NCBI GenBank assembly: GCA_001657395.1
Contig: LYSY01000002.1
Span: forward strand, 310,001 to 374,000
DNA length: 64,000 bases
From: Rhodospirillales bacterium BBD 1991-14
GTDB taxonomy: Bacteria; Pseudomonadota; Alphaproteobacteria; Kiloniellales; Kiloniellaceae
Direction of reading: 5' to 3'
A program made the position numbers and the translations under genes. The notes under the pieces are model-generated. The model was not told the origin of the DNA and did no database searches. It saw only the letters and a list, made by a program, of their open reading frames with translations. Positions 3,671 through 47,484 of this stretch are shown here, in pieces. Each line of letters starts with the position of its first letter. The first letter of the stretch is position 1.

Positions 3671-4600
3671 CTAGAGCCGCTCAGCCGCCGGCGGCATCTG
3701 GTTCAGGCGGTGGAGAACGTCGTCGAGCTGTTCGAGCGTTTTGTAGTGGATGGTCAGCGAGCCACCGCTGCCGTGAAACTTGATGCTCACCTTGAGGCCG
3801 AGGAGCGCGGTCAGATCCCGCTCCAGGGCGATGGTGTCGCTGTCCTTGGCGGGTTCTTCGGCAGCGGCGGCGGCCCCTTTGCGGGATTTCTGGGCGGGAC
3901 CGGCTTTGGCATCCTGCACCAGGCGCTCGGCCTGGCGCACGTTCAGTCCCTTGCTGACGATTTCCGCCGCCAGGTCCTCCGGCGCCGCGCAACCCACCAG
4001 GGCCCGGGCGTGGCCCGCCGAAAGCTTGCCGTCCATCACCATGGCCTTCACCGATTCCGGCAGCCCCAGCAAGCGGAGGGTATTGGCGATGTGGCTGCGG
4101 CTCTTGCCGAGCAGCTTCGCAAGTTCATCCTGGGTGTGCTGGAATTCCTCGAGAAGCCGCCGGTAGCCTTCCGCCTCTTCAATTGGGGTCAGGTCTTGCC
4201 TTTGGACATTCTCGACGATGGCAAGCTCAAGGGATTCCGCATCGGTCAGCTCGCGGATGACCACCGGGACTTCGTGAAGCTTCGCGATCTGGGCGGCACG
4301 CCAGCGGCGCTCACCCGCAACGATCTCGAATTCACTCGGCCGGTCCGGGTGGCGCCGCACCAGGATCGGCTGCAGGATCCCCTGGGCCTTGACCGACTCC
4401 GCCAGCGCCGCCACGGCGTCCTTGTCAAAAACCTGGCGCGGCTGGTAACGCCCGGGATGCAGATGCTCGACGGGAACGGCTTTCGTCGAGCGCACCTTGT
4501 CCAGCGAGGCGTAGTCCTCGTTCTCTTCGCCGAACAGCGCCGCGAGGCCGCGCCCCAGGTTGGTCTTTTTCCCTTGGTCCGATGATGCTCCGTCTGTCAT
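3671..4600 (-). CDS. parB: Chromosome partitioning protein ParB
   Basis: CTP-dependent DNA clamp that loads at parS and spreads, organising the origin region for segregation. The product has 309 residues from the ATG at 4600; a 19-residue upstream extension lacks family similarity. Visible parts are an N-terminal ParA-stimulating segment with NLGRGLAALFG (residues 14-24), the nucleotide-binding GERRWRAA box (about 96-103), ENVQRQDL (130-137), a helix-turn-helix at about 157-180 (QDELAKLLGKSRSHIANTLRLL) and a C-terminal dimerisation domain. It lies downstream of parA, 151 nt away on the same strand. Two perfect parS sites lie 1.6 and 3.7 kb away. Confidence 0.97.
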   Translation of the reverse strand: MTDGASSDQGKKTNLGRGLAALFGEENEDYASLDKVRSTKAVPVEHLHPGRYQPRQVFDKDAVAALAESVKAQGILQPILVRRHPDRPSEFEIVAGERRWRAAQIAKLHEVPVVIRELTDAESLELAIVENVQRQDLTPIEEAEGYRRLLEEFQHTQDELAKLLGKSRSHIANTLRLLGLPESVKAMVMDGKLSAGHARALVGCAAPEDLAAEIVSKGLNVRQAERLVQDAKAGPAQKSRKGAAAAAEEPAKDSDTIALERDLTALLGLKVSIKFHGSGGSLTIHYKTLEQLDDVLHRLNQMPPAAERL

Positions 4601-4751
4601 GGCCTTCACTTCCCCGAAACGGCGACTCCCCCAAGCCTCATGGCGACAGCGCCCCAAGCATGCCAGGGCGCAGACACGCGCCGCAGATCATCTGATACCG
4701 CACCCGCAAGACCATTTCGCCTACGAAACGATAGCGTGCCTGCCGGTGCCG

Positions 4752-5606
4752 TCAAGACACCATGGCGGCGCGGGCGGCCAGGCCGTCTTCGCGCTGAAGA
4801 ATTTCCCGCGCCAGACGCACATAGGCTTGGGAACCTGCGCAGCGCAGATCGTAGAGCAGGACCGGCTTGCCGTGGGACGGCGCCTCCGACACACGCACAT
4901 TGCGGGGGATGACGGTCTGATAGACCCTTTCGCCCAGGTGGCCGCGCACGTCCGCAGCCACCATCTCACAGAGGTTGTTGCGCCGATCGAACATGGTGAG
5001 CACCACGCCTTGCAGCGTGAGACCCGGGTTCAGGGCCCGCTGCACCCTGTCGATGGTGCGCATCAAATGGCTCAATCCTTCCAGCGCATAGAATTCCGCC
5101 TGCAGCGGCACCAGCACGGCATCGGCGGCCACCAGCGCATTCAAGGTGAGAAGGCCCAGCGCCGGCGGGCAGTCGATCAGCACGAAGTCGTAGCGCCCGC
5201 GCGCACGGTCCACCGCGTGCTTGAGGCGGTATTCCCGCCGGTCCAGGGCAATGAGTTCCAGCTCGGCGCCGGAGAGTTCGACCCCGGAGGGAACGATATC
5301 CATCCCCGGCACCAGGGTCGGGGTTTCCGCCTCCTCCAGTGCCAGGTCTTCCACCAGGAGTTGGTAGACACCCTGGCTGCGCTTTTCCGGAGCGATGCCA
5401 AGTCCGGTGCTGGCATTGCCCTGCGGGTCCATATCGACAATCAGCACGCGCTTGCCGCAGGCGGCCAGGGCGGTGGCCAGATTGACGGTCGTGGTGGTCT
5501 TGCCGACGCCGCCCTTCTGATTGGCGACAGCCAGCACCCGGGTGTCCACCGGGGCCGGTGTGATCACACCGTGCTCCGGACCCTCATCAACATGTTGTAG
5601 GTTCAA
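4752..5606 (-). CDS. parA: Chromosome partitioning ATPase ParA
   Basis: Walker-type ATPase whose DNA-bound gradient pulls ParB-parS complexes to the cell poles. The 284-residue product has the deviant Walker A KGGVGKTT (residues 31-38), a VDMDPQGN Walker A'-type motif and the Walker B segment FVLIDCPPALG. The first ~20 residues are a non-conserved extension that includes repeated Pro/Thr. The start codon overlaps the rsmG stop by 4 nt (ATGA type), so rsmG-parA-parB is probably one operon, the standard gid-par arrangement of alphaproteobacteria. Confidence 0.97.
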   Translation of the reverse strand: MNLQHVDEGPEHGVITPAPVDTRVLAVANQKGGVGKTTTTVNLATALAACGKRVLIVDMDPQGNASTGLGIAPEKRSQGVYQLLVEDLALEEAETPTLVPGMDIVPSGVELSGAELELIALDRREYRLKHAVDRARGRYDFVLIDCPPALGLLTLNALVAADAVLVPLQAEFYALEGLSHLMRTIDRVQRALNPGLTLQGVVLTMFDRRNNLCEMVAADVRGHLGERVYQTVIPRNVRVSEAPSHGKPVLLYDLRCAGSQAYVRLAREILQREDGLAARAAMVS

Positions 5607-6268
5607 GACGCGCCATCCTCAACAGATAGAAGTTTGAGACGCAGAATCGTTCCTTCAGGATCGGTCATGCTCTCAAAGCGCTCGATTCGCAGTCTCCATG
5701 TTTTGCGAGCCTCGGTCAATTCCAGATCGGCCGTCCGGCCCTTCAGAAACAGGCCGACAGCGCCGTCTTGTCCACAGCCAGGCTCGAGAAAGGGCGCGGA
5801 AAGAGCCAAAATCCGGGGCAAGGGCGCGAAAGCGCGACAGGTCACGACATCGCCGGGAAAGGGCGCCAGCGCTTCGATCCGTGCCGTGTGCACGGTCGCC
5901 TCCGCGCCGGTTTCCCGGACGACTTCGCGCAGAAACACGGCCTTGCGCTGATCCGACTCGACCAGATGGACGTGACCGCAGCCCAAGAGGGCCAGCACAA
6001 GCCCCGGAAAGCCGCCGCCGGACCCGAGGTCCAGGATCACCCTCGCGCGGCCTTCGGGGGCCGGTGGCAGGTGCGCGGCAAGCTGAGCGGAATCGAGGAA
6101 ATGGCGGCGCCAGAGGTCCGGCAGACTGCGCGGGCTGATCAGGTTGATCGCCGCGGTCCATTTGGTGAGAAGCGCCGCATACCGCTCAAATTTGTCCTGT
6201 GTTTCACGTGAAACATCGAGGATTCGTTGGAAATCGGCTGCCGCCAACCGCTCGGGCTCCCGTCCCAT
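5603..6268 (-). CDS. rsmG: 16S rRNA (guanine527-N7)-methyltransferase
   Basis: SAM-dependent methyltransferase acting on G527 of 16S rRNA. The 221-residue product has the SAM-binding loop DLGSGGGFPG (residues 80-89), the upstream HFLDS motif and the later TCRAFAPL segment, all typical of RsmG/GidB. Codons 19-23 (VSRET) are encoded by a perfect parS sequence, so this coding region doubles as a ParB loading site. It lies 18 nt after mnmG and overlaps parA by 4 nt. Confidence 0.96.
   Translation of the reverse strand: MGREPERLAAADFQRILDVSRETQDKFERYAALLTKWTAAINLISPRSLPDLWRRHFLDSAQLAAHLPPAPEGRARVILDLGSGGGFPGLVLALLGCGHVHLVESDQRKAVFLREVVRETGAEATVHTARIEALAPFPGDVVTCRAFAPLPRILALSAPFLEPGCGQDGAVGLFLKGRTADLELTEARKTWRLRIERFESMTDPEGTILRLKLLSVEDGAS
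6200..6215. other. parS site 1, inside rsmG
   Basis: The 16-mer TGTTTCACGTGAAACA is a perfect palindrome and an exact match to the conserved bacterial parS sequence bound by ParB. It lies in codons 19-23 of rsmG, about 1.6 kb upstream of the parB start. An identical copy is at 8298-8313. Confidence 0.95.
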
Positions 6269-8297: not shown

Positions 8298-8313
8298 TGT
8301 TTCACGTGAAACA
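8298..8313. other. parS site 2, mnmE-mnmG gap
   Basis: Second perfect TGTTTCACGTGAAACA palindrome, identical to the one at 6200-6215. It is in the 130-bp gap between mnmE and mnmG, 2.1 kb from the first site. Two close sites would let ParB clamps load at both ends of mnmG. Confidence 0.95.
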
Positions 8314-9853: not shown

Positions 9854-10108
9854 CTACTCGTCCGAAGGTTTGTCTCGGGCCGTCTTCGTCATCTGCGACC
9901 AGAAGGCTTTCTGCAGCTGCTCCCAGCCCTGGATGCCCGCCGGCAGCCAGGTCTTGATGAGCTGCTCCGGTTCCATGGCTGCCAGGCTCGCCATCATGCG
10001 CTTCTGCATCTCATCCATGACGGCCGTCTGCATTGGCGCGACGTCCGGCAGGCCGAGAAAGGCGCGCGCCTCCTCGGGAGTGCATTCGATGTCGATATGG
10101 ATCTTCAT
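9854..10108 (-). CDS. DUF6489 family small protein
   Basis: Small 84-residue acidic protein of a family common in alphaproteobacteria and of unknown function. It begins MKIHIDIECTPEEARAFLGLPDV and continues with a helical, Met-rich middle and an aromatic IQGWEQLQKAFW segment resembling short phasin-like sequences. No signal peptide or membrane segment is visible. It is transcribed toward mnmE, 68 nt away, and diverges from the DUF255 protein. Confidence 0.75.
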   Translation of the reverse strand: MKIHIDIECTPEEARAFLGLPDVAPMQTAVMDEMQKRMMASLAAMEPEQLIKTWLPAGIQGWEQLQKAFWSQMTKTARDKPSDE

Positions 10109-10452
10109 GGCTGCCCTATCCCTTTTTCCGTTGCCGCTTACGGCGCCCGATGCCGCAAACCCGATTCCGGGCCCGGGCCCGAGGTTCTCGGCGGCGCAGT
10201 CTTTTGCCCGGACATTGTGGTCCGGACACTATGGCCCGAGCACTATGGCCCGAACACTATGCCGGGGCGCCTCTCCCGAAACAGATTTTCCCTATATATT
10301 TCATGGTTGAGCCGAGGGGCCTTTGCCACCCATATAGAGGTCAGTGTTCGCACCCGGCAAGTGGGGAGAGCGCCGGCTTCGGCGTCTTTGGTCCCCCGGT
10401 CCGCTGCTCGTCCGCCGCCCCTCCGCCCCGTTTAGCGCAGAAGGACCCCGCC
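10109..10452. other. 344-bp divergent intergenic region
   Basis: The gap between the DUF6489 gene and the DUF255 protein holds four imperfect 14-bp tandem repeats (10211-10266) and a CCTATATATTTC stretch near 10291-10302 that may be a -10-like element for the rightward gene. No open frame in it resembles a protein family. A ribosome site AGAAGGA at 10438-10444 belongs to the next gene. Confidence 0.5.
10211..10266. repeat. Four tandem 14-bp repeats
   Basis: Units start at 10211, 10225, 10239 and 10253. The second reads GGACACTATGGCCC, the third GAGCACTATGGCCC, and the outer two are degenerate. The core CACTATG is kept in the last three. They could be binding sites for a regulator of either divergent gene, or a simple slippage product. 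Confidence 0.85.
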
Positions 10453-12573
10453 TTGACCGAACCACTCCCCTCCAAAGATCAGGACGGCGCAAGCCAGGCG
10501 GACGACAGCGATCTGAACAACCGCAGTCTGACCAACCGTCTGGGCGAGGAGACCAGTCCCTATCTGCTGCAGCACCACGACAACCCCGTGGCCTGGCAGG
10601 CCTGGGGCGACGAGGCCTTTGAGGCGGCCCGGAAGAGCGGCAAGCCGGTCCTGCTTTCGGTCGGCTACGCGGCCTGCCACTGGTGCCATGTCATGGCGCA
10701 CGAATGCTTCGAGGATCCGGAGATCGCGGCGCTGATGAACCGGCTCTTCGTCAACATCAAGGTCGACCGCGAGGAACGGCCGGACGTAGACACCATCTAT
10801 CAGACCGCGCTGGCGCTCCTCGGCGAACAGGGGGGCTGGCCGCTGACCATGTTCCTCACGGCAGAGGGCGAACCCTTCTGGGGCGGCACCTACTTCCCGC
10901 CGACGCCGCGTTTCGGCCGTCCCGGCTTTCCCCAGGTGCTGCAGGGCATTGCGGAGGTCTACGCCACCGACAGCGCCCGGGTCGAAAACAACACCAAGGC
11001 CCTGAAGGACGCGCTCGCCCGGCTGTCGGAAAACCAGTCCGGTCCCGGCGTCGCCCTGGCGACGATCGATCAGATCGCCGAGCACCTGGCCGGGGAGTTC
11101 GATCCGGAGCTGGGCGGCATCCGCGGCGCGCCGAAGTTTCCGCAGCCCGCGATCATGAAGCTGCTGTGGCGGGCCTGGAAGCGTGGCGGCGAGAAGTCCC
11201 TGTTCCAGGCCTGCGACACCACCCTCACCCAGATGAGCCAGGGCGGCATCTACGACCACCTTGGCGGCGGCTTCGCCCGCTACTCCGTGGATGCGCGCTG
11301 GCTGGTGCCGCACTTCGAGAAGATGCTCTACGACAACGCCCAGCTCCTGGAGATCCTGACCTGGGCCTGGCAGGACACCGGCAATCCGCTTTACGAGCAG
11401 CGCATCCGCGAGACCGTCGCCTGGACGCTCAGGGAGATGATCGCCGATGCGGACGGCAGCGGGCAGTCCCCCAGCGGTGCCTTCGCCGCCACGCTCGACG
11501 CCGACAGCGAGGGCGAGGAAGGCAAGTTCTACGTCTGGCAGGAAGCCGAGGTCGACGAGGTGCTGGGCGCCGAGGCCGCCCTCTTCAAGGCCCACTACGA
11601 CGTCGGGCGCTACGGCAACTGGGAAGGCAAGACCATCCTCAACCGCTCCGCCGCGCCGGAACTGGCCGATGCCGACACCGAAGCCCGCCTGGCGACGGCG
11701 CGGGACAAGCTGCTGGCGCGCCGCGGCGGGCGCATCCGGCCAGGCTGGGACGACAAGGTGCTGGCCGACTGGAACGGCCTGATGATCGCCGCCCTCGCCG
11801 AACTCGGACCGCTGTTCGGCGAAGCGGACTGGCTGGCCGCCGCCGAAGAGGCCTTCGCTTTCGTGTGCCGCGAGATGCTGCGCGACGGGCGCCTCTATCA
11901 CAGTTGGCGCCACGGCCGCCTGAAGCATCCCGCCACCCTGGACGACTATGCCAACATGGCCACGGCCGCCGTGGCGCTGTTCGAGGCGACGGCCAAGCGG
12001 CCCTATCTGGATCAGGCGGAAGCCTGGGTCGATGTGCTCGACCGGCACTACTGGGACCCGGCCGCCGGCGGTTACTTCCTCACTGCCGACGATACGCCCG
12101 GCCTGATCGTGCGCACCAAGAACGCCCACGACAACGCGGTGCCATCCGGCAACGGCACGATCCTCGGCGTGCTCGCCAGGCTCTTCTACCTCACCGGCAA
12201 GGACGCCTACCGCACACGGGCCGATGCGCTTGTCGGGGCCTTCGCCGGAGAGGTGAACCGCAACTTCTTTCCGCTGGCGACGCTGCTGAGCGGCGTGGAG
12301 CTTCTCGGTTCCGCCACCCAGATCGTCATCATCGGCGAGCGCGCCGCCGAAGACACCCAGGCGCTGCTTGCCGCCGTCCGTGAGTGCTGCGCACCGAACC
12401 GGATCCTCATGACCTTGGAGCCCGGTGCGGCACTGCCCGACAGCCACCCCGCCTTCGGCAAGACCCAGAGCGGCAGCCGCGCGACGGCCTTCGTCTGCCA
12501 CGGGCCGACCTGTTCCCTGCCGATCACAGAGGCCGAGGGCCTGGCGCGCGCCCTGGGCGGGACGCCTGCGTGA
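10453..12573 (+). CDS. DUF255 thioredoxin-domain protein (YyaL/SSP411 family)
   Basis: Large protein (706 residues) with an N-terminal thioredoxin-like domain fused to a six-hairpin glycosidase-like alpha/alpha toroid, as in YyaL and SSP411. The family function is not established. Diagnostic sequences are [14 protein letters not shown] (about residues 28-41), a CHWC redox pair at 75-78 followed by MAHECFED, the [10 protein letters not shown] segment and [13 protein letters not shown]. No ATG exists between the upstream stop and the conserved core. The TTG at 10453, 8 nt after AGAAGGA, is the best start. The stop overlaps the next gene's ATG by 1 nt. Confidence 0.88.
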
Positions 12574-13061
12574 TGACCCGCCGGCACCGCGGCCTCGACA
12601 CGCCCACCGGCCCGCTGCGCGTGACCGAGGAAGACGGCACCATCGTGCAGGTGACCTGGACCGCCAAGCGCGCCAGCGGGGCGGATGATGCATCGGCGCT
12701 GCTCGATGCCGCCGCAGCCCAGATCGAAGCCTACTTCGCCGGCGCGCTGCGCGTCTTCGATCTGCCGCTGAAACCCAGCGGCAGTGTGTTTCAGCGGGCG
12801 GTCTGGGAGGAGATGCTGCGCATCCCCTATGGCGAGACGCGCTCCTACGGCGATCTGGCCGCGGCGACCGGCGGCGTCGCGCGCGCCGTGGGCGGCGCCT
12901 GCGGTGCCAACCCCATTCCCATCCTCATCCCCTGTCACCGGGTGCTGGCGGCCGACCGGGCGCTCGGCGGTTTCTCCGGCGGCCGCGGCGGCGAGACCAA
13001 AGCCGAACTCCTCACCCTCGAGGGCGCCTGGCCGATCCAGCACAGCCTGCTTTTTTCGTAG
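12573..13061 (+). CDS. ogt: Methylated-DNA--protein-cysteine S-methyltransferase
   Basis: Suicide repair protein that removes methyl groups from O6-methylguanine. The 162-residue product has the active-site IPCHRV (Cys at residue 121), the helix-turn-helix FQRAVWEEMLRIPYGETRSY and the downstream GGFSGG loop. There is no Ada-type regulatory domain, so it is the Ogt/single-domain form. The start ATG overlaps the preceding stop (TGATG), suggesting translational coupling with the DUF255 gene. Confidence 0.93.
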   Translation: MTRRHRGLDTPTGPLRVTEEDGTIVQVTWTAKRASGADDASALLDAAAAQIEAYFAGALRVFDLPLKPSGSVFQRAVWEEMLRIPYGETRSYGDLAAATGGVARAVGGACGANPIPILIPCHRVLAADRALGGFSGGRGGETKAELLTLEGAWPIQHSLLFS

Positions 13062-13162
13062 GACCGCAATCTCCCGCGCAGGCGTGGTGACAGGCGTCGC
13101 CGCCGGGGGATAAGCTCTGCTCAAAATCAAAGTCTGATGCATCACTTCAAGGGGGACATCCC

Positions 13163-13855
13163 ATGGCGGAAGTAAACATCGAAGGCAAGGACGGTACCTT
13201 CATGGTCTATGTCGCGATTCCGGAGGTCACGCCGGCGCCGGGAATCGTCGTCGCTCAGGAGATCTTCGGCGTCAATCAGGTGATGCGCGAGACCTGCGAC
13301 TGGCTGGCAGACCAGGGTTTCGTCGCCGCCTGCCCCGATCTTTTCTGGCGCATCGAACCCGGCATTCAGCTCACCGACCAGAGCCAGGCGGAGTGGGACC
13401 GCGCCTTCGAGCTCTTCGGGCTTTTCGATGTCGACAAGGGTATCGAGGACCTGAAGACGACCCTGGGCATGTTGAATGCGCACATGGTCTCCAACGGGAA
13501 GTCCGGCACCCTGGGCTACTGCCTGGGCGGCAAGCTGGCCTATCTCATGGCCACACGCTCCGACGCCGATGCCAACGTCGGCTACTACGGCGTCGGCCTG
13601 GGCGACCTCCTGGGCGAAGCCGGCAGCATCAGCCATCCCCTGATGCTTCACATCGCCGAGAAGGACCAGTTCTCCTCCGCCGAGGAGATCGCGAAGGTGC
13701 AGGAGGGCCTTGCCGGAAACGACCAGGTGACGGTGCATCTCTACGAGGGCCAGGACCACGCTTTCGCCCGCAAAGGCGGCGCGCACTACGATGGCGCATC
13801 GGCCGAGCTGGCCAACCAGCGCACCATCGACTTCTTCAAGACGGCCCTGGCCTAG
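13163..13855 (+). CDS. Dienelactone hydrolase family protein
   Basis: Cytoplasmic alpha/beta hydrolase of the dienelactone hydrolase family (carboxymethylenebutenolidase-like). The 230-residue product keeps the catalytic set: Glu33 in QEIFGVN, Cys120 in GYCLGG, Asp168 in AEKDQF and His199 in DHAF. The natural substrate cannot be told. No aromatic catabolism genes are next to it, so a general hydrolase role is as likely as a chlorocatechol pathway. It precedes a quinone oxidoreductase by 27 nt, probably in one transcript. Confidence 0.9.
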   Translation: MAEVNIEGKDGTFMVYVAIPEVTPAPGIVVAQEIFGVNQVMRETCDWLADQGFVAACPDLFWRIEPGIQLTDQSQAEWDRAFELFGLFDVDKGIEDLKTTLGMLNAHMVSNGKSGTLGYCLGGKLAYLMATRSDADANVGYYGVGLGDLLGEAGSISHPLMLHIAEKDQFSSAEEIAKVQEGLAGNDQVTVHLYEGQDHAFARKGGAHYDGASAELANQRTIDFFKTALA

Positions 13856-13882
13856 AAGAGCACAGCAAGGGAGAGCGAAGCC

Positions 13883-14860
13883 ATGACCAAAGCCGTCCGC
13901 ATTCATAAACCCGGCGGGCCCGAGGCCCTGGTCTACGAGGACGTCGAGGTGCCCGCACCCGGCGCCGGCGAGGTCCTGATCGAACAGACGGCCTGCGGCC
14001 TGAACTACATCGACGTCTATCACCGCAACGGTCTCTATCCCCTGGCCGCCCTGCCGGCTGTCATCGGCATGGAGGGGGCGGGTACCGTTGCCGCGGTGGG
14101 CGACGGCGTCACCGCCTTTCAGCCCGGCGACCGTGTCGCCTATGCCGACGCCCCGCCGGGCGCCTATGCCGAAGCGCGGCTCATGCCCTGGCACCGGCTC
14201 GTGAAGCTGCCCGATGCAATCAGCGACCAGCAGGCCGCGGCCATGATGCTGCAGGGCATGACGGTGGAGTACCTGATCCGCCGCACCTATGCGGTGCAGC
14301 CCGGCGACACCGTGCTGTTGCACGCCGCCGCCGGCGGCGTCGGCCTCATCGCCTGCCAATGGCTGAACCATCTGGGCGCCACCGTCATCGGCACCGTGGG
14401 CTCGGAGGAGAAGGCGGCGCTCGCCAAGACGCACGGCTGCCACCACACCATCAACTACCGCGAAGAGGATTTCACCGCACGGGTGCGTGAACTGACCGAG
14501 GGCGCCGGCGTGCCGGTGGTCTACGATTCCATCGGCAAGGACACTTTCGAGGGCTCGCTCGATTGCCTGCGTCCGCGCGGCCTGATGGTGACCTTCGGCA
14601 ACGCCTCCGGCCCGGTGCCGCCCTTCAACCCGGCCGTCCTCGGCCAGAAGGGCTCGCTCTATCTCACCCGGCCCAGCCTGATGGCCTACAACGCCCAGCG
14701 CGAAGAGCTGGAGGCCTCCGCCGCCGCGCTTTTCGCGGTGGTGACGTCGGGCAAAGTGAAGATCGCGGTGAACCAGACCTACCCCTTGAGCGAAACCGCC
14801 CAGGCCCACAGCGATCTGGAAGCCCGCAAGACCACCGGCTCGACGGTGCTGTTGCCGTAG
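13883..14860 (+). CDS. NADPH:quinone oxidoreductase (zeta-crystallin type)
   Basis: Medium-chain dehydrogenase/reductase of the zinc-free quinone oxidoreductase class that reduces quinones with NADPH. The 325-residue product has an N-terminal GroES-like domain (CGLNYIDVYHRNGLYP), a Rossmann segment HAAAGGVGLIACQ, and the family PLSETAQAHSDLEAR near the C-terminus. No zinc-binding Cys cluster is present. It follows the dienelactone hydrolase and converges with the sigma-54 activator gene. Confidence 0.92.
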   Translation: MTKAVRIHKPGGPEALVYEDVEVPAPGAGEVLIEQTACGLNYIDVYHRNGLYPLAALPAVIGMEGAGTVAAVGDGVTAFQPGDRVAYADAPPGAYAEARLMPWHRLVKLPDAISDQQAAAMMLQGMTVEYLIRRTYAVQPGDTVLLHAAAGGVGLIACQWLNHLGATVIGTVGSEEKAALAKTHGCHHTINYREEDFTARVRELTEGAGVPVVYDSIGKDTFEGSLDCLRPRGLMVTFGNASGPVPPFNPAVLGQKGSLYLTRPSLMAYNAQREELEASAAALFAVVTSGKVKIAVNQTYPLSETAQAHSDLEARKTTGSTVLLP

Positions 14861-14902
14861 AGAAGACATCGCTCGACGGCGCAGGAATGAACGGCCGCCG
14901 GC

Positions 14903-16158
14903 TTACGTTCCCTTCGCATCCCTTAGACCCGCAGCCTTCAGGCGCGCGGCCAGGGTCGTCGGCTTGATGCCGAGCAGGGCTGCAGCACCGTCCGGGCCGT
15001 AGATCCTGCCGCTGCAGCGTGCGAGCGCGGCCATCATGTTGTCGCGGGTGCGGCGTTGCATCTCCTCCTCCGTGACGACCTCCGCGGACCTTTCCGAAGG
15101 CTCTGCGCAGGGCAAAGGCTGCGCATCGGGGCTGATCGCAAGACGGAGCGGACCGCCCGCTCGATGATGTTCTGCAGCTCGCGAACGTTGCCGGGCCAAT
15201 CGTAGCGCTCGAGCTGGCGGAGGTTGTCCGGTGTCAGGCGCGCCGGTGGCAGATTCAGTCGGGCGCAGGCGCGCTCCAGGAACAGTGCCGCCAGCAGGGC
15301 AATGTCGTCCTTGCGGTGCCGCAGCGGAGCGACTTCGATAGGAAAGACGTTGAGGCGATAGTAGAGGTCCGGGCGGAAGCGCTGCGCCTCCATCTCCCGC
15401 GCGAGGTCGCGGTTGGTGGCGGCGATGATGCGGACGTCGATGCGGCGGGTGCGGTTCTCGCCGACCCGCTCGAACTCGCCCTCCTGCAGCGCGCGCAGCA
15501 GCTTGCTCTGCAGTGCCTGGGGAATCTCCGACACCTCGTCAAGGAACAGCGTGCCGCCGTCGGCCAGTTCGAAGCGGCCCATGCGATCTTGTGACGCGCC
15601 GGTGAAGGCGCCCTTTCGGTGGCCGAAGAACTCGCTTTCGAAGAGCTCGCGCGGGACCGACGCGCAATTGACGCTGACCATGGGCCGGTCCTTGCGCGGG
15701 CTGTCCGCGTGAATGGCGCGGGCGACCAGTTCCTTGCCGGTTCCCGACTCGCCGACGATCAGAACGCCGGCGTCGGTCGGCGCCACCACCGCGATCTGTT
15801 CGCGCACCTTGCGGAGCGCCAGGCTCCTGCCCACCATGGGGCCGAGTGCCTTGGCGGTTTCCACTTCCTCCTGGAGATAGGCGATCTGCCGTTCGGCCCT
15901 CCGGCGTTCTTCCAATTCTTCATGCAATGCGTCCTTCGTCCGCCGGACCTCTTCGATCGAGCGACGCGCCGTGGCGAGCACGAAGTTCGTCAGCATCTGC
16001 AGCTTTTCGGCGGTGTCGTCATCGCTGTCGATCTTGACAAGGAGATCGAAGCGGCCGCCGACGGTCAGGCAGAGCTGATCGGCAATCTGCTCGATGAGGC
16101 TGCGCAACTCCGTCTCGCTGGAAACCCGGGTGGTTGAAGCCTGGGTGTTCGCTGTCAT
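14903..16158 (-). pseudogene. Sigma-54-dependent activator, reading frame broken before its DNA-binding domain
   Basis: Bacterial enhancer-binding protein gene. The frame from ATG 16158 encodes an N-terminal linker and coiled coil (residues 1-108, no GAF or receiver domain) and an AAA+ domain with Walker A GESGTGKE (136-143), the sigma-54-contacting GAFTGA loop (183-188), [10 protein letters not shown] and [10 protein letters not shown] (321-330). Just after IIERA, near 15150-15159, the frame is lost and ends at 15034. The missing Fis-type helix-turn-helix (DGAAALLGIKPTTLAARLKAAGL) continues in another frame to 14903. The expected 4-5 residues at the joint are also missing, consistent with a small deletion or an assembly error. 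It lies 16 nt after the H-NOX-like gene. Confidence 0.85.
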
Positions 16159-16174
16159 GAGCCCGCTCCTCCCT

Positions 16175-16729
16175 TCACAATGTCCAGCGGATGTGGAATT
16201 CGCATTCGGGATCCCCCCGGTGCAGACACTGCGTTTCCTCGACGCCGGCCGCATCGCCGTAGTGGTCGATCACCCGCTGCGCCAGCGCGCGGTAAAGACG
16301 ACAAAGGCGGTTGGGCGAGCGGTAGTGCACGATCAGTTCCCGCTCCCGCTTCTCGATACGGAACTTCTGTGCGACCGCCCGGCTGGCCTCGGGATCGGCC
16401 AGGCCCGCGGCGAAGCCGTCGTGTATTTCGGGGTGACACTCCAGCAGCGCACGCGCATCGGCGCACATCGCGTACCAGGTGGGAAAGCGCTTCTGGGTGT
16501 CCTCGAGAAAGGCCGCCGCCCAGAGGTCGCAGATCTCCTCCGGACCCCGGTCGAGTACCTCGCCGGCCGCGGCCAGCACGCGCTGGCACTCGGTGTCGCT
16601 GTAGATTTCACTCATCCGGTAGCTGCGGTCGGCGGGCACGCCGGCCCGGCGCTTCACCTCGCCGACGGCGGCCGCTCCACCTGCAGCTTCGATTGCCTGC
16701 AGAAGCGGCCGGAAGGGATATCCCAGCAT
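16175..16729 (-). CDS. H-NOX-like heme NO-binding domain protein
   Basis: Probable heme-based nitric oxide (or oxygen) sensor of 184 residues, the usual size of a stand-alone H-NOX domain. The pattern fits bacterial H-NOX proteins: an N-terminal helical part, a proximal-His region [12 protein letters not shown] (His99 or His103), an YRSPNRLC segment (136-143) at the place of the heme-propionate YxSxR motif, and a C-terminal C-x7-C (CLHRGDPEC, Cys168 and Cys176). The third residue of YxSxR is Asn instead of Arg, with Arg one place later. The start ATG at 16729 has AAGGAG 9 nt upstream. A V4R-type ligand domain is the main alternative. It lies directly upstream of the sigma-54 activator. Confidence 0.7.
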
Positions 16730-16777
16730 GGCGGGGATCTCCTTTCGGTCTGAGCCTGCGGCGAAGGCCGGACGCGG

Positions 16778-16793
16778 CGCCAGCAGTCTACCA
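16778..16793 (-). promoter_or_regulatory. Weak sigma-54-like -24/-12 sequence before the H-NOX-like gene
   Basis: On the minus strand TGGTAGACTGCTGGCG has the GG-N10-GC spacing of a sigma-54 promoter but differs from consensus at four core positions. It lies 49 nt before the start codon. The call is tentative. Confidence 0.25.
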
Positions 16794-16805
16794 CAAACCC
16801 CAGGA

Positions 16806-16826
16806 TCTTGCGGCAGCACCGCAAGA
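16806..16826. promoter_or_regulatory. Inverted repeat, candidate activator (enhancer) site
   Basis: Perfect 8-bp arms TCTTGCGG / CCGCAAGA flank a 5-nt spacer, in the divergent region between the H-NOX-like gene and the globin. It is 83-103 bp upstream of the sigma-54 promoter at 16909, the distance expected for an enhancer-binding protein. A partial ACCGCAA half-site follows at about 16836-16842. Confidence 0.55.
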
Positions 16827-16908
16827 ACGCGTGAAACCGCAAAATGTTGGGATGTTCCGCCGCGCCAAAAGGGCCGGTGAATCAGAGCGTCGCGGGAGCG
16901 GCGCCGGG

Positions 16909-16924
16909 TGGTACGGATCCTGCT
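16909..16924 (+). promoter_or_regulatory. Sigma-54 (-24/-12) promoter of the globin gene
   Basis: TGGTACGGATCCTGCT matches the TGGCACG-N4-TTGCW consensus with two transitions and has exact GG-N10-GC spacing. It lies 77 nt before the globin ATG, giving a leader of about 65 nt. Its pairing with a divergent sigma-54 activator gene makes the call more than a chance match. Confidence 0.65.
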
Positions 16925-17000
16925 CTGGTCTCCCGGCAAGCCGGAGACGGCGCCGCTGCGGCGTCCCGGCGTTTCCGATCTGCAAAAGGAGACCCCGTCC

Positions 17001-17411
17001 ATGACCGAAGAAGAACGCGATCTCGTCCAGGAGAGCTGGGCGAAGCTGCAGCCGATCTCCAGCCAGGCCGCCGCCCTGTTCTACGGCCGGCTGTTCATTC
17101 TGGCCCCTGGCCTGAAGTCCCTGTTCAAAGGCGACATGACCGCACAGGGCGAACGCCTCATGCGCATGATCGACACGGCGGTCGGCGGACTGGAGAACCT
17201 GGACGAACTTGTCCCCGCCCTGGAAGCGCTCGGCGAACGCCATGCCGGGTACGGCGTCACCGACGGAGACTACGACACAGTCGCCGAAGCCTTGCTGTGG
17301 ACCCTGGAACACGGCCTGGGGGAGGCCTTCACGGACGAGGTGAAGGCCGCCTGGGTTACCGCTTACAGCGTTCTCGCCGACACCATGAAGCGCGCCGCGG
17401 CGGTGGCATAG
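17001..17411 (+). CDS. Single-domain globin (flavohemoglobin-type heme domain)
   Basis: 136-residue bacterial hemoglobin resembling the heme domain of flavohemoglobins, whose usual role is NO dioxygenation or O2 delivery. Visible markers are FYGRLF with the B10 Tyr at residue 28, a distal-side Gln49 in TAQGERLM, the proximal His81 in LGERHAGYGV, and the C-terminal AW...Y helix. There is no reductase domain, so an external reductase would be needed. The start at 17001 follows AAGGAG by 9 nt. It is divergent from the H-NOX-like/sigma-54 activator pair and has its own sigma-54-like promoter, which suggests NO-induced expression. Confidence 0.92.
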   Translation: MTEEERDLVQESWAKLQPISSQAAALFYGRLFILAPGLKSLFKGDMTAQGERLMRMIDTAVGGLENLDELVPALEALGERHAGYGVTDGDYDTVAEALLWTLEHGLGEAFTDEVKAAWVTAYSVLADTMKRAAAVA

Positions 17412-17468
17412 GGAAGCGCCGGTCGCAATCGACGAACGCGTCCTCCGCTTGTCGGACCGCAGATCGTC

Positions 17469-17798
17469 TCAATGCACCGTGGCGTTCGAGAAGACGTTGA
17501 TGATGACGACACCGCCCAGGATGAGGGCGATGCCCAGGATGGCCGGCGCATCGAGGCCCTGCCGAAACACCACCACGCCGATCAGCGAGATGATGACGAT
17601 GCCGACCCCGGCCCAGATCGCATAAGCGATACCCAGGGGAATCGCCCGCAATGCCAGGGACAGGAAGAACAACGCGACACCGAAACTGACGACGGAGAAG
17701 GCACCCAGGCCGACGCGCGAAAAGCCGTCGGACTGCTTCAGCACGCTGGTGCCGATCACTTCGGCGACGATGGCAAGAGTCAGGTAGATCCAGTGCAT
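17469..17798 (-). CDS. SMR-family multidrug efflux protein (QacE/EmrE-like)
   Basis: Small proton-coupled drug antiporter of 109 residues with four predicted transmembrane helices. The essential membrane Glu is residue 13 (IVAEVIGT), and the helix-2/3 YAIWAGVGIV motif is typical of the Qac/EmrE branch rather than the guanidinium exporters. It is downstream of the TetR gene by 8 nt, so the regulator and pump form one operon, and the pump is the probable regulated target. Confidence 0.93.
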   Translation of the reverse strand: MHWIYLTLAIVAEVIGTSVLKQSDGFSRVGLGAFSVVSFGVALFFLSLALRAIPLGIAYAIWAGVGIVIISLIGVVVFRQGLDAPAILGIALILGGVVIINVFSNATVH

Positions 17799-17806
17799 GG
17801 CTGTTC

Positions 17807-18394
17807 CTATTCCCAGCTTTCCAGAAGCTTCAGCATGGCCCGGGAGACGTCGTCGATCATCGCGTCAACGCGCCCGGCTTCGGTGTTCCCATCGGCGGTC
17901 TGCAACTGCAGTGCGGCGCCGTCGATCAGGGCGATCAGAACCCGCGCGAGTCCGGCACAGCGCGCCGCGTCCAGGTGCGGTGCCATGACGGCGACAAGCC
18001 GTCCTGTGTCGCTGCGGAGATCGCCATAGCCCTCGGCCTTCAGCCGGGCGTAGCGCGGATCGTCCAGCGCCAGAAACTCGGCAATGGCATAGAAGCGGCC
18101 CGCCGGACCCGCGTAGTAGCGCAGCAGGGCCTCCACGGCCTCGCGGATGCAGCCTTCGGGCGCTTTCGGATCCCAGGCAATCTCGCGGAGAAACGCCGCG
18201 GCCCGCTCCGTCTCCTGGACGATCACCGCCGCGATCAGGCTGTCCTTGGTGGGAAAGTAGTATTGCAGATTGCCCAGCGAGATCCCCAGCGCCTGCGCGA
18301 TCCTCCGCAGCGAGACCCGGCTGTATCCGACATCGAGCAGGGCCCGCCGTGCCTCCGCCAGAATCGCTGCGCGCCGCGCTTCGCCCTTGAGCAT
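17807..18394 (-). CDS. TetR-family transcriptional repressor
   Basis: Ligand-responsive repressor, 195 residues, with an N-terminal helix-turn-helix (LRRIAQALGISLGNLQYYFPTKDSLI, about residues 29-54) and a helical ligand domain of C-terminal BetI/YjdC type. It lies 8 nt upstream of the SMR pump. A 17-bp palindrome fills the spacer of its likely promoter, so autorepression and joint control of the pump are expected. The start codon lies in a 14-bp tandem repeat. Confidence 0.92.
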   Translation of the reverse strand: MLKGEARRAAILAEARRALLDVGYSRVSLRRIAQALGISLGNLQYYFPTKDSLIAAVIVQETERAAAFLREIAWDPKAPEGCIREAVEALLRYYAGPAGRFYAIAEFLALDDPRYARLKAEGYGDLRSDTGRLVAVMAPHLDAARCAGLARVLIALIDGAALQLQTADGNTEAGRVDAMIDDVSRAMLKLLESWE

Positions 18395-18432
18395 CAGTCG
18401 TTGAGCATCAGTCGTTGGGCATCAGTCGTTGG
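18391..18432. repeat. Three tandem 14-bp repeats at the tetR start
   Basis: Units at 18391, 18405 and 18419 read GCATCAGTCGTTG plus A or G; a degenerate fourth follows at 18433. On the minus strand each copy makes ATG, three codons and TGA, overlapping the next ATG as TGATG. The last ATG is the TetR start. Confidence 0.9.
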
Positions 18433-18472
18433 GTATCGGCCATTGCGGCGTCCGTCAGGCAAGAGATCATCA

Positions 18473-18501
18473 ACCATAATAGGTCGATGACCTATAATCA
18501 A
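18473..18501 (-). promoter_or_regulatory. tetR-SMR promoter with operator in the spacer
   Basis: On the minus strand, -35 TTGATT (18501-18496) and -10 TATGGT (18478-18473) are 17 nt apart. The spacer 18479-18495 is exactly the palindrome ATAGGTC-gat-GACCTAT. A TetR dimer bound there would block RNA polymerase. The promoter boxes are only moderate matches; the palindrome is perfect. Confidence 0.6.
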
Positions 18502-18649
18502 GGAAACCCGGTCCGGAGCGGCCCCGACCGAAGGCCCGCAGATCGCCCGAAGATCCCCCGACGATCATTTGAACCCTCCGCCACGCTCCTTCGACCCATG
18601 AGCACCGACTGCACAGGACTTCACCGTCGGCCTGCGAAGGAGGAGAACC

Positions 18650-19306
18650 ATGATTCACAGGACATCGAAAATCGCGCTGCCAGCGCTGGCCGTGGCGGCG
18701 CTGCTTGCCGCGGGCCTGACCGGACAGGCTGCCGCCGAGACCGCTGCTGCCGAGACCCAGGCGCAGGGACCACGCCTGCTGCTCGCCCAGGCGGGCAAGG
18801 ACCAACAGATCAAGCCGGTCATCCGGCGCTTGGAGAAGAAGCCGACACGGCCGTCACGCGGCGGCGGCGTTCCCCAGGGGCCCGGCGGTCTCGATTCGGA
18901 GCCCCCGAAGCGGCTGCCCGATTTCGTCCTCCACCCCGGTCTTCCGGGCAGTGTGACCTCCGGCATGCCGAACACCGGCTTCTGCAAGCGCGAAAGCAAT
19001 GCCGGCGGCCCGGCAGACACCATCGCCTTCAAGGTGCAGTTCAAGACCAACGGTTCGCAGACACCGGCCGGCGGCTGGGGTGCGAGCCAGGTGACCGTTT
19101 CTTTCACCGGCGCCGGCATGGTCTCCGTGCCCCTGGTGAGCCCGATGTGGGACGGCACCATGCCTGTGGAGGTCGAGATCCCCAATGGCTGCTACAACGT
19201 CGGCGGCTGCCAATTCTCCATCATGATCGATCCGGCCAACATCGTCCCGGAAACCAGCAACGCCAACAACAGCACGACGAAGATCTGCGCCGCACCGGCC
19301 GGCTGA
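18650..19306 (+). CDS. Secreted CARDB-like protein of unknown function
   Basis: 218-residue protein with a clear Sec signal peptide (charged start, ALAVAALLAAGLTG core, cleavage near AAA-ET). It is followed by a Pro/Gly-rich linker and a single Ig-like domain resembling CARDB adhesion modules: alternating VTVSFTGAG-type strands and the closing IVPETSNANNSTTKIC, where the N-x-x-N-N pattern is typical. Several Cys residues suggest disulfides in the periplasm or outside. A GGAGGAG ribosome site precedes the ATG, and a strong terminator follows. No function is assigned. Confidence 0.75.
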   Translation: MIHRTSKIALPALAVAALLAAGLTGQAAAETAAAETQAQGPRLLLAQAGKDQQIKPVIRRLEKKPTRPSRGGGVPQGPGGLDSEPPKRLPDFVLHPGLPGSVTSGMPNTGFCKRESNAGGPADTIAFKVQFKTNGSQTPAGGWGASQVTVSFTGAGMVSVPLVSPMWDGTMPVEVEIPNGCYNVGGCQFSIMIDPANIVPETSNANNSTTKICAAPAG

Positions 19307-19335
19307 TCCCGGTCCTTGCGACTGCGCATAAAGAA

Positions 19336-19368
19336 CGGGCCCGGTCGCTGACCGGGCCCGCATCTTTT
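19336..19368. terminator. Strong terminator between convergent CARDB-like gene and rho
   Basis: Perfect 10-bp GC-rich stem CGGGCCCGGT / ACCGGGCCCG (19336-19345 / 19351-19360) with a 5-nt loop, followed by CATCTTTT on the plus strand and TTCTTT on the minus strand. It can serve both convergent genes. Confidence 0.85.
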
Positions 19369-19406
19369 GCAGCCGTTCGGGCGGCCTCGGCGCCGCCGCG
19401 ACGCCT

Positions 19407-22519: not shown

Positions 22520-23575
22520 CTATCCGGCATGCTCGGCGCTGAAGGCGTGAATCTGCTCCATCAGGCGGCTGACGTGCTCCGGGGGCGTCTGGGGCACGAT
22601 GCCGTGGCCCAGATTGAAAACGAAGGGTCCCTGCCCCAGTTCCCGCAGAATGCGGTCAACGGCTGCGGTCAAACCTTCGCCGCCGGCGACCAGCATAATC
22701 GGATCGAGGTTTCCCTGAACTGCGACATGGCGCTGCAGTTCCGTGCGGGCCCAGGCGAGCGGCACCGTGGTGTCGAGACCCAGCGCCTGGGCACCGGTCT
22801 CCCGCGCGAAATCGACGTACAGCAGGCCTGCACCGCGGGGAAAGAGGATGACCGGGACCTCCGGCCGCTCCCGCCGCAGGCGGGCTGTCAGCGTCTTCGC
22901 GGGCTCCAGGCACCATTCGCGAAAGGCGGCCTCCGGCCAGACGCCGGCCCAGGAATCGAAGATCTGCACGGCCTCCGCACCGGCGTCGATCTGGGCGATG
23001 AGATAATCTCCGGTGGCGTCGACCAGAAGATCGATCAGGCGCCGGAAATCCTCTGGCGCGCCATAGGCCCAGCGTTTCCCGGCCGCGAAGTCCTTGCTGC
23101 TTCCGCCTTCCAGCATATAGCTGGCAACCGTCCAGGGGGCGCCGGCAAAGCCGATCAGCGCGACCTCTTTCGGCAGGCTCTCGCGCAGGCGCCGCACCGT
23201 CTCGTAGACCGGTGCCAGGGCCGCATGCAGGCCGTCTTTGGACAGCCGGTCGAGACCGGCCGCCGTCTCGATCGCCTCCAACCGGGGGCCGACACCCTCT
23301 TCGAACCAGACCTTCTGCCCCAGAGCGTGGGGAACCACCAGGATATCCGAGAACAGGATCGCCGCGTCGAAACCGTAGCGCCGGATTGGCTGCAGCGTGA
23401 TCTCGACCGCCAGATCCGGCGTGAAACAGAGGTCCAGGAAGCCGTCGGCCTCGGCCCGCAGCTTGCGGTATTCCGGCAGATAGCGCCCGGCCTGGCGCAT
23501 CAGCCAGACCGGGGGTCTCGGCAGAGTTTCGCCGTTCAGGGCGCGCAACAGCAGTTTTTCGTCGGTTTGCGTCAC
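22520..23575 (-). CDS. hemE: Uroporphyrinogen decarboxylase
   Basis: Removes four acetate carboxyls from uroporphyrinogen III to give coproporphyrinogen III. The 351-residue product from GTG 23575 has [17 protein letters not shown] near the N-terminus (substrate Arg residues), the [12 protein letters not shown] segment with the catalytic Asp, and [13 protein letters not shown]. The frame can be extended upstream from a TTG, but the added part has no similarity and reaches into the predicted origin. It is 16 nt before hemH. hemE beside the origin is the same arrangement as in Caulobacter. Confidence 0.97.
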
Positions 23576-24163
23576 TCGGCCTCGTTGCGGGAAAGGAAGT
23601 CCGTGGAGAGTGTTCTGAGGGTTCCGCGATAGCGAAATGTAAGGAGCCAGAACAGACAAGATGGCCTTTTCCGCAGGCTTGGCAAAGCCCCCTTCTTCCA
23701 AAAAAGAATCTTAAAAGGGTTTTGGATTTTGTTGTTTATCCCTGTGAGAGTCGGGGATCTGCGCTTTGCCGGAAGTTGTCCCGAGAGTCGTCCGCAAGGG
23801 GCCGGCAGCCGCCCCCGTTCTGTGCACGAGCATGGCACAAGCAGTCCGAAGGGGCGGTTATCCGGCGGCTTGCGCGAACCCGGTAAGCAGGGGATAACGG
23901 GGAAAACCCCGGCGGCCAGGGTGCCGTTGTGGGGTTTTCGGCTGTTGTGGGTGTCTGTGGTTCACAAGGGAAGACTCGTCTGACGGATTGCAGGCCAGGC
24001 GTGATGAAAATCCGCCCTGGCCGGGGCGACTCGGATTTTCCCCCGGTTTTCATCCCGGCTGCACAGGTCATACACAGAATCGCCGCCCGGACCGGCGCGC
24101 GGCTGGTCCGCCCCGGGAGGTCCATCTGGCGGCGGTGCGAGGAGAGGGGCAAGGAGAGGCCGG
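23576..24163. other. Predicted chromosomal replication origin (oriC), hemE-ppsR gap
   Basis: 588 bp without a credible gene between divergent hemE and ppsR, the place of the mapped Caulobacter origin and of predicted origins in other alphaproteobacteria. It has an AT-rich patch (about 23690-23745) in otherwise GC-rich DNA and DnaA-box-like 9-mers: TTATCCCTG (23736-23744), TTATCCGGC (23858-23866), TTATCCCCT on the minus strand (23889-23897) and TCATACACA (24068-24076). None is a perfect TTATCCACA. Genes on both sides mostly point away from it, and parS lies 15-18 kb to the left. The call rests mainly on synteny. Confidence 0.75.
24003..24054. other. Nested inverted repeats inside predicted oriC
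   Basis: GAAAATCCG (24006-24014) is the exact reverse complement of CGGATTTTC (24032-24040), while the overlapping GATGAAAA (24003-24010) pairs with TTTTCATC (24047-24054). Two mutually exclusive stems are possible. They could be an origin structure, a protein site, or part of the ppsR leader. Confidence 0.6.
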
Positions 24164-24985
24164 ATGGCGACCCATCATCTGCATCTGGTGTCGGACTCGA
24201 CCGGCGAGACGATCAACTCCGTCGCGCGGGCCTGCCTGGTGCAGTTCAGTGGCGTGGAGCCGGTCGAGCATGTCTGGAGCCTGGTGCGCACCCGCGGCAT
24301 GATGAACAAGGTGGTCAGTCAGATCGAAGCCCATCCCGGTCCGGTCCTGTTCACTCTGGTCAACCACAGTCTGCGCGATCAGCTCACCAGTTGCTGCATG
24401 CAGCTCGGGGTGCCCTGCATTGCCATTCTCGATCCCGTGATCCACACCATGGCCAATTATTTCGGCGTCGAGATGAAAGGCACACCGGGGCTGCAGCACG
24501 CCCTCGATGCCGAGTACTTCGGGCGCATGGATGCCATGACCTTCGCGCTCACCCACGATGACGGCCAGCACTGCAGCGACCTGGCCAAGGCGGACATCAT
24601 TCTGGTCGGCGTTTCGCGCACCTCGAAGACGCCGACCTGCATGTATCTGGCCAACCGCGGCATCAAGGCGGCGAACATTCCCGTGGTGCCCGGCTGCCCG
24701 ATTCCGGATGAACTGCTGCAGGCCGACGGGCCGCTGATCATCGGGCTCACCAAGGATCCGGCGCGCCTCGTCCAGGTTCGCCAGAACCGCCTGCGCATGC
24801 TCACCGACGACCGCCAGGAGACCGACTACGTGAACCTCGAGTCGGTGCGCGAGGAAATCGCCCAGGCGCGGCGCTTCTGCGTCGAACACGGCTGGCCGCT
24901 GATCGACGTCACGCGGCGGTCGATCGAGGAAACGGCTGCCACCATCATGAGCTACTACGCGCGGCACATCGGCGGCGAACCATGA
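24164..24985 (+). CDS. ppsR: Pyruvate, phosphate dikinase / PEP synthase regulatory protein (kinase/pyrophosphorylase)
   Basis: Bifunctional DUF299 enzyme that phosphorylates with ADP, and dephosphorylates with phosphate, the catalytic region of PEP synthase or pyruvate phosphate dikinase. The 273-residue product has the P-loop GVSRTSKTP (residues 149-157), an N-terminal LVSDSTGETI, and the closing RSIEETAATIM. Its target dikinase is not in the window. It is the right-hand neighbour of the predicted origin and begins the rightward block ppsR-maf-aroE-coaE-dnaQ. A GGAGAGG-type ribosome site lies just before the ATG. Confidence 0.95.
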   Translation: MATHHLHLVSDSTGETINSVARACLVQFSGVEPVEHVWSLVRTRGMMNKVVSQIEAHPGPVLFTLVNHSLRDQLTSCCMQLGVPCIAILDPVIHTMANYFGVEMKGTPGLQHALDAEYFGRMDAMTFALTHDDGQHCSDLAKADIILVGVSRTSKTPTCMYLANRGIKAANIPVVPGCPIPDELLQADGPLIIGLTKDPARLVQVRQNRLRMLTDDRQETDYVNLESVREEIAQARRFCVEHGWPLIDVTRRSIEETAATIMSYYARHIGGEP

Positions 24986-46911: not shown

Positions 46912-47484
46912 CTAGGCGGCAGCCACCCTTCGCCAGAACACGAAATGCGGGCCGGTCCCCGGGTTCTCGAATTCTCCCCCAACCGCGGCAAAGCCCTGGC
47001 GCTCGTAGAAGCGCCGCGCGCCGGTGCGGCCCTGGCACCAGAGGACGGCGCCCGCCGCGCCGCGGCCCGCCAGGCGGCGGGCCAGCTCCGTGACGCCGAA
47101 GCCCAGGACCGCGCCGCCCAGCCCGCTGCCCTGCGCCTCAGGGTAAGTCGCCATGGACAGCAGCCGCCAATAGCGCTCGGCCCCATATCCCCGGGCCCCG
47201 GCCTCCGCCAGCAGCGCGGTACTGCCGGGTCCGTGCGGCTGTTCGATCTTGAAGCTGGCGGTGCTGACCACCCGTGCATCCGGCGCCGGGCCCGCGCGGG
47301 CGCCGACGTGAAAGCGCTCGGCCCCGTCGGCGTAAGCGGCCATGGCGCCCTCGGGCGTCAGCCAAGGGCGCAGCACGGTCTTGCGCAGATCGAAGAGCGC
47401 CTCCAGCGGCACCAGGTCGATGCGGTGACCGGCGTGGTCAATGGCGGCACTTTCGTCACCAGGGCGTTCGTCAGCGGATTGCAT
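46912..47484 (-). CDS. GNAT-family N-acetyltransferase
   Basis: 190-residue acetyltransferase. The acetyl-CoA motif is seen in LLSMATYPEAQGSGLGGAVL and the closing GARRFYERQGFAAVGGEFE. The start at ATG 47484 is chosen; the frame extends upstream with low similarity. The substrate is unknown. Convergent with the hydrolase. Confidence 0.85.
   Translation of the reverse strand: MQSADERPGDESAAIDHAGHRIDLVPLEALFDLRKTVLRPWLTPEGAMAAYADGAERFHVGARAGPAPDARVVSTASFKIEQPHGPGSTALLAEAGARGYGAERYWRLLSMATYPEAQGSGLGGAVLGFGVTELARRLAGRGAAGAVLWCQGRTGARRFYERQGFAAVGGEFENPGTGPHFVFWRRVAAA

Follow-up and report, generated by a model that had tools for sequence, protein, structure and literature searches.

Where does replication of the main chromosome begin in a 5.51-Mb draft genome divided among 21 contigs, and does the gap between hemE and ppsR mark the place? 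We analysed a stretch of 64,000 nucleotides (hereafter, the window) that corresponds to bases 310001-374000 of contig C15 (1,009,797 bp). The PpsR protein encoded in the window shares 99% identity with that of Pelagibius sp. PL25a_bin.145 and 94% with that of P. litoralis, the closest named relatives; we therefore assigned the source, a marine bacterium, to Pelagibius, a genus that NCBI places in Rhodospirillales. The hemE-ppsR gap is the standard origin place for the alphaproteobacterial class, in which an origin of the hemE type is recognized by borders formed by hemE and COG1806, a cluster of DnaA boxes, an AT-rich unwinding region, a turn in GC skew, and nearby parS sites and parAB genes. 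Judged from sequence, the gap at 23576-24163 is very probably the DnaA-dependent origin (oriC) of the main chromosome, because gene context, parS, a nearby skew turn, box enrichment and conservation agree; several independent lines thus support this location.

The gap is 588 bp long, and its limits are exact provided that hemE starts at the GTG at 23575. Using NCBIfam, we identified rho, hemJ, hemH and hemE (22520-23575; TIGR01464) on the minus strand to its left, and ppsR (24164-24985; NF003742, PRK05339 family), maf, aroE, coaE and dnaQ on the plus strand to its right, followed by secB on the minus strand. The gap is accordingly bordered by hemE and by ppsR, which we take to be the COG1806 type. 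A preliminary description of this DNA had given the same gene order and had stated that the flanking genes mostly diverge, and both statements hold, with secB again on the minus strand. It had also likened hemE beside the origin to the Caulobacter arrangement, which agrees with what the relevant part of PMC1914354 says of the borders: the origin of Caulobacter crescentus has hemE on one side and COG1806 on the other, and the borders in Rickettsia prowazekii are identical. Farther left of the rho-hemE block are mnmE, mnmG and parB (NCBIfam), with rsmG and parA among them assigned by eye alone. The genes mnmE and rho are neighbours in other alphaproteobacteria; in the window, about 9 kb of unrelated genes (10000-19400) lie between them, which by eye include a YyaL-like gene, a methyltransferase, a dienelactone hydrolase, an oxidoreductase and a sigma-54 regulator. 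An Rfam search of 23300-24400 returned zero matches at the gathering threshold.

The same arrangement recurs in relatives. In 62 of 80 loci, hemE and ppsR are divergent and 283-712 bp apart, and the two genes also diverge in 20 of 20 further genomes of the order, some of which may be the same species as members of the 80-locus set. At the other 18 loci, hemE was not found in the analysed DNA upstream of ppsR (five have <4 kb of upstream DNA), and up to 500 bp upstream of ppsR contained 0-5 box-like sites; we rejected these loci as a clean control, with L058 and L072 reaching contig ends within 700 bp. The 62 gaps total 27,073 bp and contain the exact DnaA box TTATCCACA 42 times, as compared to 0 copies in the coding DNA next to them (54,146 bp), and with one mismatch allowed the counts were 156 and 6, respectively. 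The motif TTATCCCC was present in 48 of the 62 gaps, as compared to a mean of 1.7 after shuffling.

By strict consensus, the gap in the window has no DnaA box cluster, as zero exact or one-mismatch TTATCCACA sites were found in 23576-24163. The preliminary description had reported four DnaA-box-like 9-mers, and we recovered all of them within two mismatches of TTATCCACA, at 23667 and 24068 on the plus strand and at 23889 and 23956 on the minus strand. By this crude count the gap is only mildly unusual: at least four such sites occurred in 21 of 4076 overlapping 588-bp windows in 400 kb, and 4 of these 21 overlap the gap.

A cluster is found with a profile trained on relatives, alongside the enrichment in homologous gaps. 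This 9-mer profile (219 sites, drawn from 56 homologous gaps of other genera) identified eight sites of at least 4 bits in the gap. The best two, TTATCCCCT (23889-23897, 11.3 bits) and TTTTCCCCG (23898-23906, 10.0 bits), abut on the minus strand. Weak DnaA-box-like sites on the plus strand are TCATACACA (24068-24076, 8.1 bits), at roughly the place of which relative G032 carries TCATCCACA; TTTTCCGCA (23667-23675, 7.5 bits); TTATCCCTG (23736-23744, 7.4 bits), at the edge of an AT-rich stretch; TTTTCCCCC (24036-24044, 7.0 bits); and TTGTCCCGA (23776-23784, 6.5 bits). At thresholds of 4, 6 and 7 bits, the count in the gap was unmatched elsewhere in 400 kb. At 5 bits, one other place tied it (windows starting at 486.2-486.5 kb), and at 8 bits it was exceeded at 484.8-485.3 kb and tied at 525.4-525.6 kb. 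The clusters at 484.8-486.5 kb overlap or adjoin open frames that by eye are transporter-like (L102 11,452-14,564), and we therefore rejected them as rival origins. Abutting pairs of 9-bp boxes were present in 16 of the 62 homologous gaps (a mean of 2.4 and a maximum of 11 across 2000 random placements) and in 4 of 20 gaps from a second genome set of the order, so that the tandem pair is frequent, not general, and was rejected as an order-wide rule.

Within the gap, the 50 bp of lowest stability (23690-23739) form the predicted DNA unwinding element, with a mean nearest-neighbour dG of -1.20 per bp as compared to -1.62 over 400 kb, where 0.1% of 50-bp windows are equally weak. The most AT-rich 50 bp, which bears out an AT-rich patch mentioned in the preliminary description, also starts at 23690; its 70% AT is reached by 0.08% of 50-bp windows in 400 kb, at 18 separate places. 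In 60 of 63 homologous gaps, the most AT-rich 40 bp are in the half nearer to hemE.

We aligned the gaps of six genus members, leaving out the near-identical L005, and found four runs of 6 or more invariant bases: AAGATG, TCCCTGTGA, GGGGAT and GGGATAACGGGGA. Together these runs hold 34 bases, a sum reached in 0 of 2000 column shuffles. Two of the four overlap profile-scored box sites: TCCCTGTGA (23739-23747, invariant in 6/6 members) overlaps the TTATCCCTG site, and GGGATAACGGGGA (23891-23903) overlaps the abutting box pair. In the genus, as in five aligned genomes of the family (g4), TCCCTGTGA comes after the AT-rich stretch. GGGGAT (23753-23758), which faces the TTATCCCTG site, matches only part of the box motif and has no profile match at 4 bits in the window. 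AAGATG (23658-23663) is without a match to the motif; it lies near hemE in a conserved AAGATGGCCTTTTCC-like block that is not box-like and could belong to the hemE leader.

The gap also contains six GANTC motifs, the CcrM-type methylation site, between 23706 and 24081 (starting at 23706, 23748, 23785, 23973, 24028 and 24077). The mean over 400 kb is 0.92 per 588 bp, and one other place (422 kb) reaches six. The 62 homologous gaps average 3.74 per 588 bp, versus 2.46 (sd 0.20) in dinucleotide shuffles, such that the excess is common to homologous gaps of other genera, more weakly; among seven further palindromes with this layout, AGNCT had the largest excess (1.78 versus 1.26, sd 0.17). At C10:170.8 kb, an open frame of 359 aa carries a RAMA domain and by eye is CcrM-like. 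GANTC motifs in the Caulobacter origin have already been reported, in the part of PMC3973325 that concerns them, and the cluster is therefore not new in kind. We found zero CtrA sites (TTAA-N7-TTAA within one mismatch) and zero matches to the IHF consensus in the gap, and hence none of the CtrA and IHF sites overlapping DnaA sites that characterize Caulobacter Cori. In the 62 gaps, CtrA-like sites with one mismatch occurred at 0.37 per 588 bp, as compared to 0.016 in 400 kb, a comparison made without a shuffle control.

A palindrome search identified two exact parS sites (TGTTTCACGTGAAACA) at 6200-6215 and 8298-8313. They are the only exact ones in the genome and lie within 18 kb of the gap (15-17 kb to its left), and the reversed control pattern had zero matches in the genome. 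Nearby on the minus strand are parB (3671-4657; NCBIfam TIGR00180) and parA (4752-5606), the latter assigned by eye from its Walker motif, with no NCBIfam match at E 1e-40. At least two parS matches occurred within 20 kb of ppsR in 6 of 6 relatives searched, as exact pairs in G046, G042, G033 and G029 and as sites with only 1-2 mismatches in G048 and G004. Away from ppsR, there are further matches with 1-2 mismatches in G029, G042 and G046, and one match to the control pattern occurred in G029.

For the genome of the window, nucleotide skew was computed on contig C15, one of the 21. In 400 kb of this contig, the cumulative minimum fell at 357,209 for GC and at 347,466 for keto skew, 13-24 kb from the gap at 333,576-334,163. 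Across 39 stretches (bases 1-533,000 complete plus 12 further 20-kb samples), a single change point fitted best at the block 353,001, with mean skew of -0.0127 to the left and +0.0132 to the right, and 0 of 2000 shuffles of the stretches were equally good. The skew in this contig is weak. In the closed relative G048 (a single contig of 4.18 Mb, same order), the homologous gap occupies 373,404-373,889, and the minima within 280-480 kb were at 373,925 for GC, 36 bp beyond the gap, and at 374,310 for keto, 0.4 kb beyond the gap, both inside hemE. Around the whole circle of G048, based on 28 sampled stretches, the minimum was at 358-360 kb and the maximum at 2.45-2.5 Mb. The preliminary description had named a skew minimum lying elsewhere as the observation that would count against an origin here; the sign change near the gap in C15 and the minimum just beyond it in G048 leave its proposal standing.

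In many bacteria the origin is located beside dnaA, and the gap might then be a conserved divergent regulatory region instead. This alternative, which we consider very improbable, draws on the presence of dnaA on the same contig (C15:471 kb, 137 kb from the gap) and on the fact that localisation by skew alone errs by tens of kb. Two relatives leave it room: in G004, a closed 4,621-kb circle on which ppsR lies at 29 kb and dnaA at 83 kb, the minima (GC 4,611 kb, keto 60 kb) are resolved only to ~40 kb, too coarse to choose between gap and dnaA, and the coarsely sampled keto minimum of G046 (413 kb) is at neither. However, dnaA lies in the positive-skew zone of C15, with positive values in 4 of 4 20-kb blocks from 393,001 through the block holding dnaA. 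In G046, which is of the same genus, cumulative GC skew keeps falling past dnaA (561.5 kb) to a minimum at 669-670 kb, which is closer to the gap (22 kb) than to dnaA (108 kb), and the local minimum of G048 adjoins the homologous gap, with dnaA 124 kb off. Exact parS sites occur near the gap alone, and among seven clusters of at least four sites within two mismatches in 400 kb, one is the gap and 0 of the 6 others are at the dnaA start. According to the relevant passage of PMC8116508, a dnaA position close to ori is not conserved in Rhodospirillales.

The minima in C15, at window positions 47,209 for GC and 37,466 for keto, could also be taken to place the origin in this neighbourhood and outside the gap, for example 13-24 kb rightwards. 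We give this reading marginally less credence still: weak skew is noisy at that scale, G048 puts the minimum beside the homologous gap, and profile-scored boxes cluster more densely in the gap than anywhere else in 400 kb at three of five thresholds, the places that tie or exceed it at the remaining thresholds (484.8-487 kb and 525 kb) being outside this neighbourhood. The chromosomal origin between hemE and ppsR that was originally proposed is supported by skew, parS, box enrichment and the AT-rich stretch. The parS sites, the abutting box pair and the GANTC cluster are additions to what the preliminary description had listed.

In the seven Pelagibius gaps (the window and L005-L010), we found 0-2 boxes within one mismatch of TTATCC[AC]CA, whereas the 56 other gaps hold a mean of 3.9 (range 1-7). 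Exact TTATCCACA was present in 0 of the 7 and in 29 of the 56, consistent with an earlier suggestion that the boxes are degenerate and that DnaA may rely on weak sites. As the exact box is missing from 27 of the 56 others too, it is the small number of near-consensus boxes that sets Pelagibius apart. Within the family, exact TTATCCACA occurred in 9 of 9 gaps analysed from two sister genera (of 12 genomes listed), and the one gap from a third genus was without it. The DNA-binding motif GGRDHTTVMHAV is identical in 7 of 7 aligned DnaA proteins, that of the window's genome included, and the weakening would therefore be in the origin and not evidently in the protein. Overall, DnaA sites of Pelagibius look weaker than those of most relatives examined, and the gap appears to be an ordinary, well-placed alphaproteobacterial origin with lineage-specific weakening of its boxes; the system is of a known kind, and the weak-box variant alone is mildly new. 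Tentatively, Pelagibius may have independently evolved a fully low-affinity origin, having lost consensus boxes while keeping the same DnaA binding motif, with initiation on the conserved abutting TTTTCCCCG-TTATCCCCT pair and perhaps timed by GANTC, a parallel to Caulobacter without CtrA sites that we regard as conceivable, with somewhat more doubt than conviction.

In E. coli oriC, the unwinding region lies beside the DnaA array and the adenine-methylation motif GATC is clustered. The gap resembles it in having a predicted unwinding region by the DnaA array and a clustered methylation motif, GANTC in place of GATC, and differs in its neighbouring genes and in lacking a consensus anchor box. 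Closer likenesses are to other, mostly Rhodospirillales gaps (e.g., Magnetospirillum L025 and Sneathiella L030) in place, AT-rich hemE side and the TTATCC[AC]C motif. Based on the pertinent parts of three reports, the gap shares with Caulobacter Cori its border genes, a small intergenic origin, weak DnaA sites, GANTC and parS within some kb (PMC1914354, PMC4468827, PMC3973325), although Cori, as described there, has both CtrA and IHF sites, unlike the gap in the window. In the Caulobacter origin, weak DnaA sites fall into two classes, and replication can drop when mutations raise their affinity (PMC4468827, in part). The weak boxes of the window are mostly CCCC variants, unlike those of Cori; the T-to-G change of the Cori G-box occurs in some genus members (TGATCCC, in the box beside the AT-rich stretch), not in the window.

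Literature searches for Pelagibius with origin of replication found no publications, and none of the titles listed on oriC, Rhodospirillales, hemE and GC skew defines this origin. Our analysis places an origin in the draft genome of a little-studied marine genus and offers a natural comparison between members of the family that have consensus boxes and a genus that lacks them, the DnaA DNA-binding motif being common to both; how weak sites suffice for timed initiation becomes testable outside Caulobacter and without CtrA sites.

From these features we infer DnaA binding, DNA opening and initiation at the gap, and the order of segregation. DnaA would bind the low-affinity array cooperatively, nucleating on the abutting TTTTCCCCG-TTATCCCCT pair at 23889-23906 and spreading from there to weak sites on both sides. 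The AT-rich 23690-23739 on the hemE side, with TTATCCCTG at its edge (23736), would then open, and helicase would load. Forks would leave bidirectionally, co-directional with hemE-hemH-hemJ-rho on the left and with ppsR-maf-aroE-coaE-dnaQ on the right, and parS, 15-17 kb leftwards, would segregate early via ParAB.

A one-mismatch parS-like site (CGTTTCACGTGAAACA or its complement) is located at C1:819796-819811, far from the par cluster, and this variant also occurs once each in G042 and G046.
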